Positions 1-7,027 of a stretch of DNA of 7,850 bases are shown here, one piece after another. The stretch's first letter is position 1. Every line of letters starts with the position of its first letter. Source of the DNA: Thermoplasmata archaeon (GTDB lineage: Archaea; Thermoplasmatota; Thermoplasmata; Thermoplasmatales; Thermoplasmataceae); the NCBI GenBank assembly GCA_021811635.1, contig JAJZNS010000011.1, forward strand, positions 1 to 7,850, in the 5' to 3' direction. Under the pieces are notes generated by a model that was not told the origin of the DNA, ran no database searches, and saw only the letters and a program-made list of their open reading frames with translations. The translations under genes and the position numbers were made by a program.

Positions 1-441
1 GGGGGCAAGGCCTCAGCAGGTGCACCGCTTGGCCCTGCACTTGGCCCGCTTGGATTAAATCTTGGCCAGGTAATCAAGGATATCAACGAGAAGACCAAGG
101 CATTTGCAGGAATGCAGGTTCCAATATCGGTCATAATCACCGATCCAGCTTCGAAGAAATACGAGATTAAGGTGGGAGTGCCGCCAACCTCTGCCCTACT
201 CAAGAAGGAACTTGGAATCGAGAGCGCGTCCGGAAACAAGAAGGAGAAAATCGCTGCTGACGCTTCCCTCGAAGTCATCAAGAAAGTGGCTGCTTCCAAG
301 ATGACGTCAATGCTATCATACGATCTCAGGGGGGCTGTAATGGAGGTCCTTGGGACATGCGTGTCGATGGGGGTCAACGTTGAAGGCAAAGACCCGAAGG
401 AAGTGCAAAAGCTTATTATGAGCGGGTCAATCAAACTCTGA
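1..441 (+). CDS. rpl11: Large ribosomal subunit protein L11 (uL11), 5' end missing
   Basis: This is ribosomal protein L11, which binds the GTPase-associated region of 23S rRNA at the base of the stalk, where translation factors dock. The frame is open from the first base, and the first methionine in view (base 112) is internal. The N-terminal domain starts with the glycine/proline-rich stretch GGKASAGAPLGPALGPLG, the L11 signature of alternating Gly-Pro that contacts factors and, in bacteria, thiostrepton. The C-terminal rRNA-binding domain runs from about residue 70 of the visible part and ends in the family-typical segment MGVNVEGKDPKEVQKLI. There are 146 codons here. By comparison with archaeal L11, only about ten N-terminal residues should lie upstream of the window. 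It is the first visible gene of the stalk operon, 40 bp ahead of rpl1. Identity is certain; the start is not visible. Confidence 0.97.
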   Translation, partial: GGKASAGAPLGPALGPLGLNLGQVIKDINEKTKAFAGMQVPISVIITDPASKKYEIKVGVPPTSALLKKELGIESASGNKKEKIAADASLEVIKKVAASKMTSMLSYDLRGAVMEVLGTCVSMGVNVEGKDPKEVQKLIMSGSIKL

Positions 442-474
442 CCTGTAGGAGAGAGTATATCTCGCACGGACTAC

Positions 475-480
475 GGAGGT
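475..480 (+). promoter_or_regulatory. Shine-Dalgarno sequence of rpl1
   Basis: GGAGGT is a full match to the archaeal anti-SD. It ends one base before the ATG at 482 but 7 bases before the in-frame TTG at 488. The spacing therefore favours TTG 488 as the true start of L1, or else an unusually tight arrangement. Confidence 0.7.
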
Positions 481-481
481 A

Positions 482-1141
482 ATGCGTTTGCCGGAAGATG
501 GCATTTCAAAAACAATTGATGAAATAAAGAAGCAGTCGCCTGAGAGGAAATTCAGGGAGAGCATAGAGCTTGCAATCAACCTGAAGGATCTTGATCTTTC
601 TGATCCCAAGAACAGGGTAAATGAAGAAATTGTGCTGCCCAAGGGAAGAGGAAAAGACATTTCCGTGGCAGTTTTTGGCACGTCAGAGCTCAAGGAGAAG
701 GCCAAGAAGGCCACAAAAGCCGTCTATGGACCTGAAGACATCAATAAGTTCCTTGAGGACAAGAGAGAGTTCAAGAAGCTTGTCGAAAAAATTGACTTTT
801 TCATAGCCGAATCCACATTGATGGCTTCCATTGGTAAGTCGCTGGGTCAGATACTCGGACCAAGAGGTAAGATACCCAAACCCATCCCGCCAGGCCAGGA
901 TCCCGTTGCCATGATCTCCAGCCTTGGTAAAACCGTAAGGGCAAGAAGCCGTGACAAGAGGACGTTCCACGTACCGGTCGGTACCAGGGACATGAAGGAC
1001 GAGGATCTTGAGGAAAACATAAATGCAGTGCTAAGAAGGCTTGTCACCAAACTTGAAAAGGGGTATGGAAACATAGAATCAATTTTCGTAAAGACCACGA
1101 TGGGAAAGGCTGTCAAACTTGAAATTGGTGATCGCAAATGA
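482..1141 (+). CDS. rpl1: Large ribosomal subunit protein L1 (uL1)
   Basis: Ribosomal protein L1 forms the mobile L1 stalk that guides deacylated tRNA out of the E site. The protein is 219 aa, the usual archaeal length. The N-terminal part of domain I (about 1-65) carries NRVNEEIVLPKGRG. Domain II (about 66-160) contains the family signature LGPRGKIPKPIPP (125-137). The chain returns to domain I and ends with IFVKTTMGKAVKL (201-213), the conserved rRNA-binding loop. The start is ambiguous: ATG at 482 lies one base from the GGAGGT, whereas TTG at 488 has normal spacing and shortens the protein by two residues. The stop overlaps the rpl10 start as ATGA, so the two are probably translationally coupled. 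In Methanococcus, L1 represses its own operon by binding its mRNA early in the L1 gene. I did not identify such a site here. Confidence 0.97.
   Translation: MRLPEDGISKTIDEIKKQSPERKFRESIELAINLKDLDLSDPKNRVNEEIVLPKGRGKDISVAVFGTSELKEKAKKATKAVYGPEDINKFLEDKREFKKLVEKIDFFIAESTLMASIGKSLGQILGPRGKIPKPIPPGQDPVAMISSLGKTVRARSRDKRTFHVPVGTRDMKDEDLEENINAVLRRLVTKLEKGYGNIESIFVKTTMGKAVKLEIGDRK
1127..1133 (+). promoter_or_regulatory. Shine-Dalgarno sequence of rpl10 inside rpl1
   Basis: GGTGATC matches the part of the SD complementary to the GATCACC of the 16S rRNA 3' end. It sits 4 bases before the ATG at 1138. It is embedded in the Ile-Gly-Asp-Arg codons at the end of rpl1 and supports the overlapping start of rpl10. 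Confidence 0.7.
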
Positions 1142-2094
1142 GGAAACCAGCACAGTGGAAAGTGGAATTGGTTGACGATCTCTCAGATCGGCTTTCCAAG
1201 TCGAAAGTTTCTGCGATAGTGGGTATCAAGGGAATCAGCAACAATCAGTTGCAGAAGATTAGGAGAGACCTCCGCGGGGAAATGGAACTCAAGGTTACGC
1301 GCGGAACTCTGATCTGGAAAGCACTTGAAAAATCTGGAGTCAAGGGATTTGAGAACCTGAAGGAACTCGTTTCAGGACAGGTGGCGATTCTCACGACAGA
1401 CCGTTCTCCGAACGCAACGTTCGAGAAGCTCTCAAAAACAAAGCAGAAATCCCCCGCCAAAGGCGGTGAGGTTGCCGAGGATGACATAGTCGTAGAGGCG
1501 AGCGAAACATCGTTCCCTCCTGGCCCTATGGTCAGCGAGTTCCAGAAAGTTGGGCTCCAGACTGCAATCGAGAAGGGAAAAATTGTAATCAAGAAAGACA
1601 CAGTTCTTGTAAAGAAGGGAGAAACCATCTCGAAGGAGAAGGCAGCGGTGCTGAAAAAATTGGAGATTTTCCCGCTCACTGTAGGCATAGACATGAAGGG
1701 TGCCCTGTACGATGGCATATTCTTCGATGAAAGTGCTCTCTCAATAACTCCATCCAGTGTCCTGCAGGATGTATCACGTGCGCTGGTGACAGCAAAGAAG
1801 CTTGCGCTTGCCTCAAAGTTCATCGTGCCGGAAATAGTTCCAGAGCTTCTCGTCATGGCAAGGATAAATGCCGAGTCGCTTGCAATAGCTGCCGGGGTTG
1901 TTGATGAGGGCAGTATAGAGTTATTTATACTGAAAGCAATTAAGGATGCCGCTGCACTCAATTCGGTAGTCTCCCCAGGCGAGAACGTGCCGGAGAAGGC
2001 AGAGGAACCTAAAGCTAAAAAGGACAGGGAACCGGAGAAAAAGGAGAACATGGACGACCAGATATCTGAGGGTCTAGGAGCCCTGTTCGGATAA
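1138..2094 (+). CDS. rpl10: Large ribosomal subunit stalk base protein L10 (uL10, P0)
   Basis: This is the archaeal P0 protein, which anchors the L12 dimers to 23S rRNA and forms the stalk that recruits and activates translational GTPases. The protein has 318 residues. The rRNA-binding N-terminal domain (about 1-105) includes [11 protein letters not shown]. It is followed by the archaeal/eukaryotic-specific inserted domain (about 108-185), with the characteristic [16 protein letters not shown] (124-139). A helical spine (about 205-275) binds L12 dimers. A lysine/glutamate/proline-rich hinge (about 283-305) leads to the tail [14 protein letters not shown]. That tail matches the end of L12 and is the factor-binding peptide shared by P0 and P1. 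The ATG overlaps the rpl1 stop by 4 bases and the gene ends in tandem stops (TAA TAG). An AT-rich dyad with a TATA-like core lies inside the gene at 1911-1932. Confidence 0.97.
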
Positions 2095-2108
2095 TAGAGG
2101 AGAGAAAA

Positions 2109-2450
2109 ATGGAATATGTATATGGGGCTCTGCTCCTGCACTCAGCAGGATCGGAGATAGACGAAACAAAACTGAAGAAGGTACTTGAAGGAGCAGGCGT
2201 GAAGGCGGACGCAGCCAGGATTAAATCCATGGTGTCGAGTCTGCAGGGCGTGAACATCGATGAGGTCCTGAAGAACGCCGCATCGGCAACCGTATCGGCA
2301 GCACCCGCTGCCCAGGCTCAGTCACATGAAGCCACTCACGAGGGCGATAAGAAGGGCGGGAAGAAAGCGAAGGAGGAGCCTAAGGAAGAGAAGAAGCAGG
2401 AAGGCTCTGAGGACGATGCGCTTGCAGGCCTGAGTTCCCTTTTCGGATGA
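2109..2450 (+). CDS. rpl12: Large ribosomal subunit stalk protein L12 (P1-type)
   Basis: This is the archaeal L12/P1 protein, present as several dimers on each L10, which captures elongation and initiation factors through its C-terminal tail. It has 113 residues. The helical dimerisation domain [14 protein letters not shown]... runs to about residue 58 and includes [11 protein letters not shown]. An alanine-rich then strongly charged Lys/Glu hinge follows (about 59-101). The conserved tail [13 protein letters not shown] parallels the last residues of L10. GAGGAG at 2097-2102, 6 bases before the ATG, is a good SD. The gap to rpl10 is only 14 bp, so this is the same operon. It is an archaeal/eukaryotic P-type protein, unrelated in fold to bacterial L7/L12. 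Confidence 0.97.
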
Positions 2451-2719: not shown

Positions 2720-3181
2720 TTACGGCGTAAGTTTGAGTTCCTTCATCTTTTCCAGCACTTCAGATCCATGGGCCTTTGGAGAGACCTTTTCATAGACGTG
2801 GGCAATCTTACCGTCCCTGTCTATCAGGTACGTCACCCTGTTCGCATGCCCTGTCATGCCCTTTACCCCGTACTGAGTGACAATCTTTTTCGAGTCATCG
2901 GCCACAAGCGTAAAATTCAGGTTGTATTTTTCCTGGAACTTCTTGTGCGATTTCTGGCTATCGACGCTTACTCCAAGCACGGTTATGCCCTTTTCCTTGA
3001 ACTGGCTGAAATTGTCCCTGAAATTGCATGCTTCCGCGGTGCATCCTGGAGTATCATCCTTCGGATAAAAATAGAGAACAACCGGGGATCCCCTGAAGCT
3101 GCTCAGTTTCACATGCTTGCCGTCCTGATCCACTGATTCGAAATCCGGTGCCTTTGTTCCTGGTCTAAGCAGTTCTTCCAT
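2720..3181 (-). CDS. bcp: Thioredoxin-dependent thiol peroxidase, Bcp/PrxQ family peroxiredoxin
   Basis: A cytoplasmic peroxiredoxin that reduces hydrogen peroxide and organic hydroperoxides, using thioredoxin-like donors. The 153 residues match the usual Bcp/PrxQ length. The chain opens with LRPGTKAPDF, typical of the thioredoxin fold. The active site is YPKDDTPGCTAEACNFRD (residues 39-56), giving P40, T44 and the peroxidatic C47. C52 is five residues on, in the position of the resolving cysteine in E. coli Bcp. R115 in NRVTYLIDRDGKI completes the catalytic set. The gene is convergent with the stalk operon and lies 111 bp downstream of the CBS gene on the same strand. No SD is visible before the ATG, but an AT-rich element sits about 16-28 bases upstream, so a leaderless or short-leader transcript is likely. 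The stop codon lies in the loop of a small GC hairpin (2712-2727). Confidence 0.95.
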   Translation of the reverse strand: MEELLRPGTKAPDFESVDQDGKHVKLSSFRGSPVVLYFYPKDDTPGCTAEACNFRDNFSQFKEKGITVLGVSVDSQKSHKKFQEKYNLNFTLVADDSKKIVTQYGVKGMTGHANRVTYLIDRDGKIAHVYEKVSPKAHGSEVLEKMKELKLTP

Positions 3182-3292: not shown

Positions 3293-4387
3293 TCATCGCT
3301 TCTTCTGCTTGATCAGCCTTGCCTCATAACCCTCAAAGATCTCGTAGACGCATTTTCCGAAATTCCAGTCGTAGGAGTTCACGGACATGTAAATCTTCCC
3401 GGCAGTAAGACGGGTCCTGACTGAATATTTCGTGCTGCCCTCCGTGTTGTACCTGATCACGTGAATATTGAGCAGAGCAGATTTCACGCCAAACATCTTT
3501 CCCAGCTTCTGGGCAAACTTCTCACTCAGGCCGTAAGCGATGTCGTACAGATCCTCGTCACCTGGACCAAGGCCGGTGATGGTCACCAGGAGACCTTGCT
3601 TTCCGGCAGGCCTGGCGAGTATGTCAATGATGTCGTCGATCCCTATCACGCCGGTTATCTTCTGCGATGAGTCGACCACGGGAATTATGTGCATGCGCAG
3701 TTTTACCATCTCGCTGCATGCCTTGCTCAGCGGATCCCTGTCTGTAACGGACACAGGGTCATCCATCAGTGAGGAGACAATGACTTTTGACTTGCTCTTT
3801 TCCGAGGTGTATTGCCCGTACTGGATCCGCTGCCTGTCAGCCATTGTCATTTCCATAATGCTTTCAAGCCTCAGCACTCCGGCCAGTTTTCCTGAATCAT
3901 CGGAAACGGGAACTTCATATTCATCGAGCTTCCTCATGGCCTCGACTGCGTTCTCTATGGAATCACCAACGTTCACGGAAATTGGATCGACGGTCTTAAC
4001 CTCAAGCGCCATAATCCCGCTTACGTCACTGATCTCCTGTACGTATTTTGCGATGTCAAACCTGGAGAGTATTCCGACGAGCTTCTTCTTATCGGTTACA
4101 GGAAGTGCTGGCAGTCCGGAAGAATGGAGTTTCTGGACTGCGCTTAAGCTATCCTCATCCGGGGACAGTTCCGCGGTGGTGATCATGAAGGACGCAACCT
4201 TGGCCCTGGGCTGGATGCTCCTCCTGCGCATAATGTCCCTGTAAACAACCAGCCCCTGGTATTTGCCCCCCTTGATTAGAGGGAGGGAATGGATGCTGTT
4301 CTCCCTCATCTTGGTCAGTGCGGCAGAAAGAGGCTCTGATGCCTCCAGTGTTATGAGTTCCCTTGTCATCATCTGTTCAACTTTCAC
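3293..4387 (-). CDS. Four-CBS-domain protein with C-terminal HPF/RaiA-like ribosome hibernation domain
   Basis: The protein has 364 residues. Four CBS motifs can be read, at about 1-56, 62-118, 125-182 and 203-257. Each has the usual end pattern, for example GLVVYRDIM, GILSRFDIA and GVIGIDDII. Pairs of CBS motifs form Bateman modules that usually bind adenosyl ligands such as AMP, ATP or SAM. Residues about 266-364 are a different domain with the order strand (LLVTITG), helix (EDLYDIAYGLSEKFAQKLG), three strands (NIHVIRYN; TKYSVRTRLTAG; KIYMSVNSYD) and helix (GKCVYEIFEGYEARLIKQKKR). That beta-alpha-beta-beta-beta-alpha layout, the ITG start and the basic C-terminal helix match the HPF/RaiA fold, which blocks the ribosomal decoding site. 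The role as a ligand-gated ribosome inactivation factor is inference. The start is GTG, overlapping the upstream SHMT gene as GTGA, with GGTGAT 5 bases before it (4393-4398). Confidence 0.88.
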   Translation of the reverse strand: MKVEQMMTRELITLEASEPLSAALTKMRENSIHSLPLIKGGKYQGLVVYRDIMRRRSIQPRAKVASFMITTAELSPDEDSLSAVQKLHSSGLPALPVTDKKKLVGILSRFDIAKYVQEISDVSGIMALEVKTVDPISVNVGDSIENAVEAMRKLDEYEVPVSDDSGKLAGVLRLESIMEMTMADRQRIQYGQYTSEKSKSKVIVSSLMDDPVSVTDRDPLSKACSEMVKLRMHIIPVVDSSQKITGVIGIDDIIDILARPAGKQGLLVTITGLGPGDEDLYDIAYGLSEKFAQKLGKMFGVKSALLNIHVIRYNTEGSTKYSVRTRLTAGKIYMSVNSYDWNFGKCVYEIFEGYEARLIKQKKR

Positions 4388-5617: not shown

Positions 5618-7027
5618 TTGCTTCAGTCAAGGGAAAAAGAGAGAATCCTGGAATTTTTTCAGTCAAATGGGATACTCGTCGCCCCTGACGCGCTAAACAG
5701 GATCATTGAGAATAATATGGGCCCGATGATCCGATCCCTGCTGACCTCTGAGGTGCTGGACTCCGGTTATCTTTCTGAAAAACAGATACATTCCGTCCTC
5801 GTAGACTCAAACAAAACAAGAAACCCGTACTTTGAGGTCGATTATTCCAACCTCAAGGTCAACAGCTCTGCCGAGGATTTCAGGAAATACTTCTCGGACA
5901 GGTATGAGAAACTGAAGAAGATTATCCTGCTTTCCAGCCATATGCGCGGGACCCTCCCGATCTCCAAGGCAAAAAGGACTCCGGGCAAGTTAAAAGTGGT
6001 CGGCATGGTTTCGGAGACGAGCGTCACTTCCAATGGGCACAGAAAGCTCCTCATTGAGGATCTTGAGGATTCCATTCAGGTCATAATAATGAAGAAGAAC
6101 CCGATCTCCTCCGAGCTTATCCTGCCTGATGAGGTAATTGGCATCGTGGGATCGGTATCCTCAGGCAAAGGCGACCCAGTGATATTCGCGGATGAGATCG
6201 TCAGGCCGGATATACCGAACAGGGTGGTGCAGTTCGAGGAATCTGCCCCCGTATTTGTCGGGTCGATCTCAGACATACACGTCGGGAGCAAGACTTTCAG
6301 GAAGGACGATTTCCGATCCATGATCCACTGGCTCAACGGAGGAAGCGAAGAATCAAAGCAGCTGAAGTACCTGGTTCTGAGCGGTGACGTGGTGGACGGG
6401 ATTGGCGTTTACCCTTCCCAGGAAAACGATCTTGAGATCCTTAACCCCATGGAGCAGTATTCTGCTCTGGCGGAACTGATTTCCGGCATACCCGAAGACG
6501 TGAAGGTATTCATAATGCCGGGAAACCATGATACCGTGAGGCTCGCCGAACCACAGCCATGCCTTCCGGAAGCCCTCAGGAAGGATCTTCCGGATAATGC
6601 GTTCCTTATCCCGAACCCATGCACCCTGACGCTGGAGAAGAGGAAGGTCCTGGTCTATCACGGAATGTCCCTCAATGATCTTGTTGAACTGATCCCGGGA
6701 ATGAATTACTCAACCATAGGAGATGCGGTGAAAGAGCTGCTTAAAAGGCGGCATCTTGCCCCGAGGTACGGAGGAAAAACTCCGTTAATCCCCTCTGCCA
6801 CCGATTACCATGTCATAGAGGAGATCCCGGACGTGTTCATAACGGGCCACGTGCATTCCCATGCAATGGGAGAATACAAGTCGGTGAGGTACGTGAATTC
6901 TTCCACCTGGCAGTCACAGACTGATTACCAGAGGATGATGAATTTCAGCCCCAATCCTTCGATACTGACCCTGTTCGATCTGAACTCCCTCAATGTGGTA
7001 AAGAAGGATTTCAAGCCAACTTCCTAG
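5618..7027 (+). CDS. polB: DNA polymerase D (family D) small subunit DP1, 3'-5' exonuclease
   Basis: The small subunit of replicative DNA polymerase D, which carries the proofreading nuclease and partners the catalytic subunit DP2 (not in this window). The 469 residues contain a small helical N-terminal region (about 1-60), an OB-fold (about 122-205) and a calcineurin-like phosphoesterase domain (about 210-469). The metal-binding motifs are all intact: SISDIHVGS (216-224, D219 and H221), LSGDVVDGIGVYP (D257), MPGNHDTVRLAEPQP (N303, H304, D305), VYHGMSLNDL (H348) and TGHVHSHAMG (H411, H413). This predicts an active nuclease, unlike the eukaryotic B subunits, which lost these residues. The start is TTG with TGATC 3 bases before it. 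An in-frame stop at 5588-5590 leaves no ATG upstream. The stop overlaps that of the next - strand gene in a shared CTAG. Confidence 0.96.
   Translation: MLQSREKERILEFFQSNGILVAPDALNRIIENNMGPMIRSLLTSEVLDSGYLSEKQIHSVLVDSNKTRNPYFEVDYSNLKVNSSAEDFRKYFSDRYEKLKKIILLSSHMRGTLPISKAKRTPGKLKVVGMVSETSVTSNGHRKLLIEDLEDSIQVIIMKKNPISSELILPDEVIGIVGSVSSGKGDPVIFADEIVRPDIPNRVVQFEESAPVFVGSISDIHVGSKTFRKDDFRSMIHWLNGGSEESKQLKYLVLSGDVVDGIGVYPSQENDLEILNPMEQYSALAELISGIPEDVKVFIMPGNHDTVRLAEPQPCLPEALRKDLPDNAFLIPNPCTLTLEKRKVLVYHGMSLNDLVELIPGMNYSTIGDAVKELLKRRHLAPRYGGKTPLIPSATDYHVIEEIPDVFITGHVHSHAMGEYKSVRYVNSSTWQSQTDYQRMMNFSPNPSILTLFDLNSLNVVKKDFKPTS

Follow-up and report, generated by a model that had tools for sequence, protein, structure and literature searches.

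A probable Thermoplasmata orthologue of the archaeal hibernation factor HibA, encoded behind a serine hydroxymethyltransferase-like gene

The window, i.e. the whole stretch of 7,850 nucleotides analysed here (contig JAJZNS010000011.1 of the Thermoplasmata archaeon assembly GCA_021811635.1), encodes a protein with four CBS domains and an HPF/RaiA-like C-terminal domain, whose gene we call hibA for the reasons given below. The first-pass annotation of this DNA had the coordinates of the gene right. Its open reading frame (ORF) runs on the minus strand from a GTG start at 4387 to a stop codon at 3293-3295, with no internal stops. The GTG is overlapped by 4 bases by the stop codon of the gene directly upstream, which encodes a paralog of serine hydroxymethyltransferase (SHMT). 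The features of the locus are collected in Table 1.

Table 1. Coordinates of the features discussed, as positions in the window (PTC, peptidyl-transferase centre)
Feature	Positions	Strand	Basis or remark
Probable hibA orthologue, 364 aa, CBS x4 + HPF/RaiA-like domain	3293..4387	-	ORF, Pfam, profile match to 9sr9_H, AF2
CBS module, residues 1-257	3617..4387	-	
C-terminal HPF/RaiA-like domain, residues 258-364	3296..3616	-	
CBS2 motif GILSRFD, residues 105-111	4055..4075	-	sole CBS of the protein with both S/T and D
Loop after CBS3, ~residues 186-200, QRIQYGQYTSEKSKS	3788..3832	-	aligned with P. abyssi PTC loop 190-207
SHMT-like paralog, 389 aa	4384..5553	-	directly upstream of hibA
PrxQ-like peroxiredoxin	2720-3181	-	downstream of hibA
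DNA polymerase D small subunit	5618-7027	+	divergent
L11-L1-L10-P1 ribosomal protein genes	1-2450	+	convergent to hibA
Small protein of unknown function, 113 aa	7024-7365	-	
Small protein of unknown function, 107 aa	7407-7730	-	

A chance origin of the hibA ORF can be dismissed, because it has 33 homologues at E <=5.4e-26 that each span 97-100% of the query, and their alignment holds 12 invariant columns, five of them in the C-terminal part. The product is 99% identical to the protein P0002 of a metagenome-assembled genome (MAG), named 'CBS domain-containing protein [Candidatus Thermoplasmatota archaeon]', and the closest named locus is L001 of Thermoplasmata archaeon isolate YP2.bin70. A search of a plasmid collection with the protein returned 8 records, and the five listed cover no more than 52% of the query.

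The Pfam scan recognized the four CBS stretches (E 2.7e-36) and gave nothing over the cut-off in the final 100 residues. The full-length AlphaFold2 (AF2) model, with a predicted local distance difference test score (pLDDT) of 84.8, structurally matches four-CBS modules over residues 1-261. CBS chains dominate its 50 listed matches, among which is neither HPF nor the Pyrococcus abyssi structure 9sr9 discussed below; the structure library ends at 2026-04-08 and 9sr9 is possibly outside it. Since CBS chains filled this list, the C-terminal domain was folded separately. Predicted alone, residues 258-364 adopt the order strand-helix-strand-strand-strand-helix with a mean pLDDT of 90.2 (strands 265-271, 303-315, 318-329 and 332-340; helices 278-299 and 343-363), and the structure comparison of this isolated-domain model backs an HPF/RaiA-type fold. 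The first-pass annotation had read from the letters four CBS motifs, this same order of strands and helices, an ITG start and a basic C-terminal helix, and had likened the domain to HPF/RaiA, all of which is borne out: ITG lies at residues 270-272, the final helix ends in EARLIKQKKR, and the net charge is +7 for residues 258-364 and -4 for residues 1-257. Among the best 31 matches listed, bacterial HPF, RaiA (YfiA) and plastid pY are 7-16% identical to the domain, and the matched chains have no CBS module, unlike the window protein. We file the protein under HibA and not under bacterial HPF because the Pfam profile of the HPF/RaiA family, which we take to be the one named S30AE, is unmatched.

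The homology to HibA extends over the whole protein. In a single-sequence search of all PDB chains the top match was 9sr9_H (residues 1-361, E 8.5e-17), and a profile of 34 relatives matched this chain, the HibA of P. abyssi, over positions 2-360 with E 1.9e-46. The entry 9SR9 is listed as HibA-ATP in PMC13324472, which we cite throughout from the part of its text available to us and which described HibA in April 2026; no other paper on archaeal HibA was found among the titles and abstract openings searched. The P. abyssi protein (PDB 9sr9, 9sra-9srf, 9t7h; PMC13324472) has 392 residues and the window protein 364. The two align end to end, and both carry after CBS3 a loop with YG[QE]xxxEK whose lengths are aligned. 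We consider it very probable that the window gene is the Thermoplasmata orthologue of HibA, a protein proposed to block and preserve idle 70S ribosomes.

Several observations weigh against this assignment. The identity to P. abyssi HibA is 72/359 aligned residues (20%), and 14/99 within the C-terminal domain, where P. abyssi shares four of the eight columns with 90% conservation across 77 rows. The loop after CBS3 is modelled at pLDDT <50 (residues 186-199), so that its shape is not confidently predicted. Basicity is not a constant property of the C-terminal domain, whose net charge ranges from -2 to +8 across 76 sequences. No HPF/RaiA family appears in the Pfam scan of the protein up to E 1, and a 29-row C-terminal profile run against the PDB sequences up to E 10 found no HibA and no HPF. 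In favour of the assignment, though more weakly than for the whole protein, a 76-row C-terminal profile matched the P. abyssi C-terminal domain at E 0.013, with 0/2000 shuffles matching at E 10, and gave only E 0.19 when the whole P. abyssi HibA was the target. Of the two places where archaeal insertions in the HPF/RaiA domain would lie, the one that follows strand 1 and the one that separates strands 2 and 3 both align with P. abyssi, the only protein compared for them, and the second is two residues shorter.

What is known of P. abyssi HibA suggests how the window protein would act. Its C-terminal domain sits in the mRNA/tRNA channel of the 30S subunit, its CBS module is found at three places on the 50S subunit, and the loop after CBS3 reaches the peptidyl-transferase centre; extracts of P. 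abyssi translate less when the protein is present, and T. barophilus cells that have lost it contain about 60% less 70S in stationary phase and are slow to resume growth (PMC13324472). The gene, the domains, the predicted fold and the homology are observed in the present data, and by analogy with P. abyssi the window protein would bind ribosomes, at the corresponding sites. The four-CBS module would occupy the empty tRNA sites of the 50S subunit, the loop after CBS3 would reach into the peptidyl-transferase centre, and idle 70S ribosomes would be blocked and kept intact until growth restarts. The first-pass annotation had proposed a hibernation factor of this kind, and the end-to-end homology and the fold support the role. 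A new family it is not: we rejected the fusion of four CBS domains with HPF as an undescribed family, since it is already in PMC13324472, where HibA is reported from 47% of archaeal genomes, in every major lineage.

Other PDB chains were matched to different extents. The chain a of 9l96 ('CBS domain-containing protein', 406 aa; also 9l98, 9l9c, 9l9v), matched by profile positions 1-363 over residues 1-382 with E 8.9e-34, may be another full-length relative; the literature search found neither the organism nor the publication behind it. Profile matches are confined to the CBS part in Dri of Pyrobaculum calidifontis (9e6q, 9e7f), described in PMC13324472 as two CBS modules, and in the Sri proteins of Methanosarcina acetivorans (9znf, 9zng, 9zni), and a literature search on SriA/SriB yielded no paper. 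As to entry names, chain H of 9sr9 was labelled 'Dehydrogenase' by its depositors.

The nucleotide motif of the CBS module is placed differently in the two proteins. The motif G-h-h-[ST]-x-x-D, of the adenylate type, occurs in P. abyssi HibA in CBS3 (GLVTLHD) and CBS4 (GILTVKD), the Asp being missing from CBS1 and CBS2. In the window protein it is complete only in CBS2 (GILSRFD); CBS3 (GVLRLES) lacks both the S/T and the D and CBS4 (GVIGIDD) lacks the S/T. We compared 76 sequences, the window included, plus P. abyssi, after dropping those shorter than 330 aa, exact duplicates and L044-L046. Both motif residues are present in CBS2 of 54/54 window-clade sequences (CBS1 10, CBS3 0, CBS4 8), and among 22 more distant Thermoplasmata sequences in CBS2 of 17 and CBS4 of 22 (CBS1 and CBS3 0); near-identical rows remain, hence 54 and 22 are not independent counts. 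Because the motif is kept in CBS2 and mostly absent from CBS3/CBS4, where P. abyssi has it, the ligand site has probably moved in the window lineage. A weaker inference than that of ribosome binding is that an adenine nucleotide binds to the window CBS module, CBS2 being its probable site. This placement of the motif was not met in the available text of PMC13324472.

Whether such a ligand would control hibernation is a separate question, on which the first-pass annotation had proposed that the CBS module senses AMP, ATP or S-adenosylmethionine (SAM) and switches ribosome binding on or off. The isolated P. abyssi CBS module binds one nucleotide per module, at the CBS3/CBS4 interface, with dissociation constants of 12 uM for AMP, 65 uM for ADP and 113 uM for ATP; however, the classes of ribosome complexes are unchanged by AMP, ATP adds only one weakly populated ribosome-bound state, and native HibA-ribosome complexes are without nucleotide (PMC13324472). 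The proposed gating thus finds no support in P. abyssi. Nor does the window lineage lend it any, since there the canonical nucleotide motif belongs to another CBS domain than in P. abyssi. A protein that binds ribosomes as HibA does, and in which a nucleotide or SAM in CBS2 truly toggles the binding, has in its favour that a motif retained in all window-clade and most distant sequences suggests a retained ligand. We regard this as unlikely, given the nearly unchanged ribosome-bound states in P. abyssi, and the CBS2 motif alone demonstrates neither ligand binding nor switching.

The second unusual feature of the locus is the SHMT-like gene. We rejected the possibility that it is the housekeeping enzyme, as 6/6 genomes searched hold a second SHMT elsewhere, which scores 208-218 bits with PF00464 against 119-138 bits for the hibA-linked one. 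We aligned 28 hibA-linked SHMT-like sequences picked by eye, 27 of them distinct; the window gene was read by eye and is represented by the row L001, 98% identical to it. Three segments are absent from 28/28 linked paralogs, namely YAEG..YY, GGGH (which reads GGY) and the NKN...PSGIRIG loop, of which 15 residues are missing before RIGT, while the canonical SHMTs of six of the genomes carry all three (6/6). The pyridoxal phosphate (PLP) lysine motif STHK and YD[GA]SHV are kept in 28/28 linked paralogs, as is R[IVL]G, the T of RxGT being replaced by L or S in four. The first two of these segments contain the positions of E57 and H126 in E. coli GlyA, and folate binding is aided by the loop that is missing, so that SHMT activity of the linked paralog is doubtful. 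Other Thermoplasmata contributed 20 further homologues from elsewhere in their genomes, of which 19 have lost the same segments. The remaining one, L119 of the distant genome G045, is of the canonical type, and a hibA gene stands in divergent orientation some 195 bases from it. In T. volcanium the protein P0141, 45% identical to the window SHMT-like protein, is named 'serine hydroxymethyltransferase'.

The SHMT-like gene lies directly upstream of hibA on the same strand in 31/34 loci (exceptions L018, L023 and L024), at spacings of -4 to +19 bases; over the measured pairs as a whole the gap runs from -11 to +19. The 34 loci came from a search of the genome collection with a single peptide pattern characteristic of close relatives, so they are no census, and some come from one MAG (L008, L009). 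The HibA profile has a match at E <=1e-30 in 192 of 200 genomes sampled from the class, though weak matches may represent CBS modules that lack the HPF part, and in at least 26/200, with the coordinates compared by eye, hibA is immediately preceded on its strand by an SHMT-like gene. In the genomes with HibA at E <=1e-132 the upstream gene is present in 25/26, the exception being G175. Twenty-four more distant loci (L082-L105) have no SHMT-like gene in the fetched flanks of 0.1-3 kb, the upstream side of L090 ending at the contig end. In a tree of 60 rows, from which 17 of 77 had been left out by eye as likely near-copies, a branch (100/97) separates the 35 linked rows, G175 and three unlinked copies with long loops from the rest. 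The linkage label has to change three times on this tree, in agreement with a single gain plus two losses but no proof of them, and judging from these sequences the pairing is limited to one clade. The pairing is unmentioned in the available main text of PMC13324472 by word search, and a literature search on Thermoplasma SHMT and the CBS domain did not find it.

A translational coupling of the two genes would tie the HibA level to the SHMT-like gene, a point we put forward with less force than ribosome binding. One may go further and speculate that hibernation in the Thermoplasmatales-like clade of the window is tied to amino-acid or one-carbon status: the amount or state of HibA would be set by a co-translated, SHMT-derived PLP enzyme that has lost the folate pocket, and the nucleotide site would have shifted from CBS3/4 to CBS2; as a whole we think this improbable. 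Still less probable in our judgment is a metabolic regulator with no ribosomal role, i.e. a CBS protein that serves as a subunit or allosteric partner of the co-translated SHMT-like enzyme. The tight same-strand spacing of the pair and its restriction to one clade would agree with such a partner, but the HibA architecture exists at the 24 distant loci (with the reservation on L090) and in same-clade second copies with no SHMT-like gene nearby, and the C-terminal domain is folded like a ribosome-binding factor. The NCBIfam model of HhpR, the CM-3 protein, matches residues 2-173 with E 1.3e-8, which might point to a transcription regulator akin to it. This match covers the CBS domains only and scores 34.3 bits against a cut-off of 520, and HhpR is described in PMC13324472 as a stand-alone CBS module whereas the window protein has an HPF-like domain; we give this idea hardly any credence.

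The assignment to HibA links what would pass in this lineage for a generic 'CBS domain protein' to a family whose ribosome-bound structure has been solved, and therefore hibernation becomes testable in the lineage. The family is already known, and the aspects worth following are the pairing with the SHMT paralog that lacks segments of the folate pocket and the moved motif, neither of which was met in the available text of PMC13324472. The conserved pairing offers a concrete lead on a possible signal to archaeal hibernating ribosomes, which that text leaves open.

Two full-length HibA genes were found in 3/6 genomes (G003, G004, G005), one beside the SHMT-like gene and one apart. The unlinked second copies (L018, L023, L024) form a single clade (100/100) in the 60-row tree, and their loops after CBS3 have 32, 32 and 43 residues, compared with 25-27 in the other 51 window-clade sequences, and are thus 5 to 18 residues longer. 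Mixing of bins is an unlikely cause in G005, the source of L018, because its record is titled complete genome. As a lead and not a result, these copies may contact the 50S subunit differently, since it is this loop that extends to the peptidyl-transferase centre in P. abyssi. A tandem pair of HibA-like genes on one strand occurs in a distant Thermoplasmata genome (G193, locus L096).

Some of the remaining neighbours recur in near relatives. The DNA polymerase D small subunit gene is divergent from the SHMT-hibA pair also in L001-L003 and L059; HibA pull-downs with replication proteins in Thermococcales are cited in PMC13324472, and the neighbourhood, confined to near relatives, may be due to chance. 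In the window, L001-L003 and L059, hibA is followed on its strand by the PrxQ-like gene, which is not directly downstream at the other loci. The 113-aa and 107-aa proteins, with no Pfam match above the cut-off, are kept in L001-L003.
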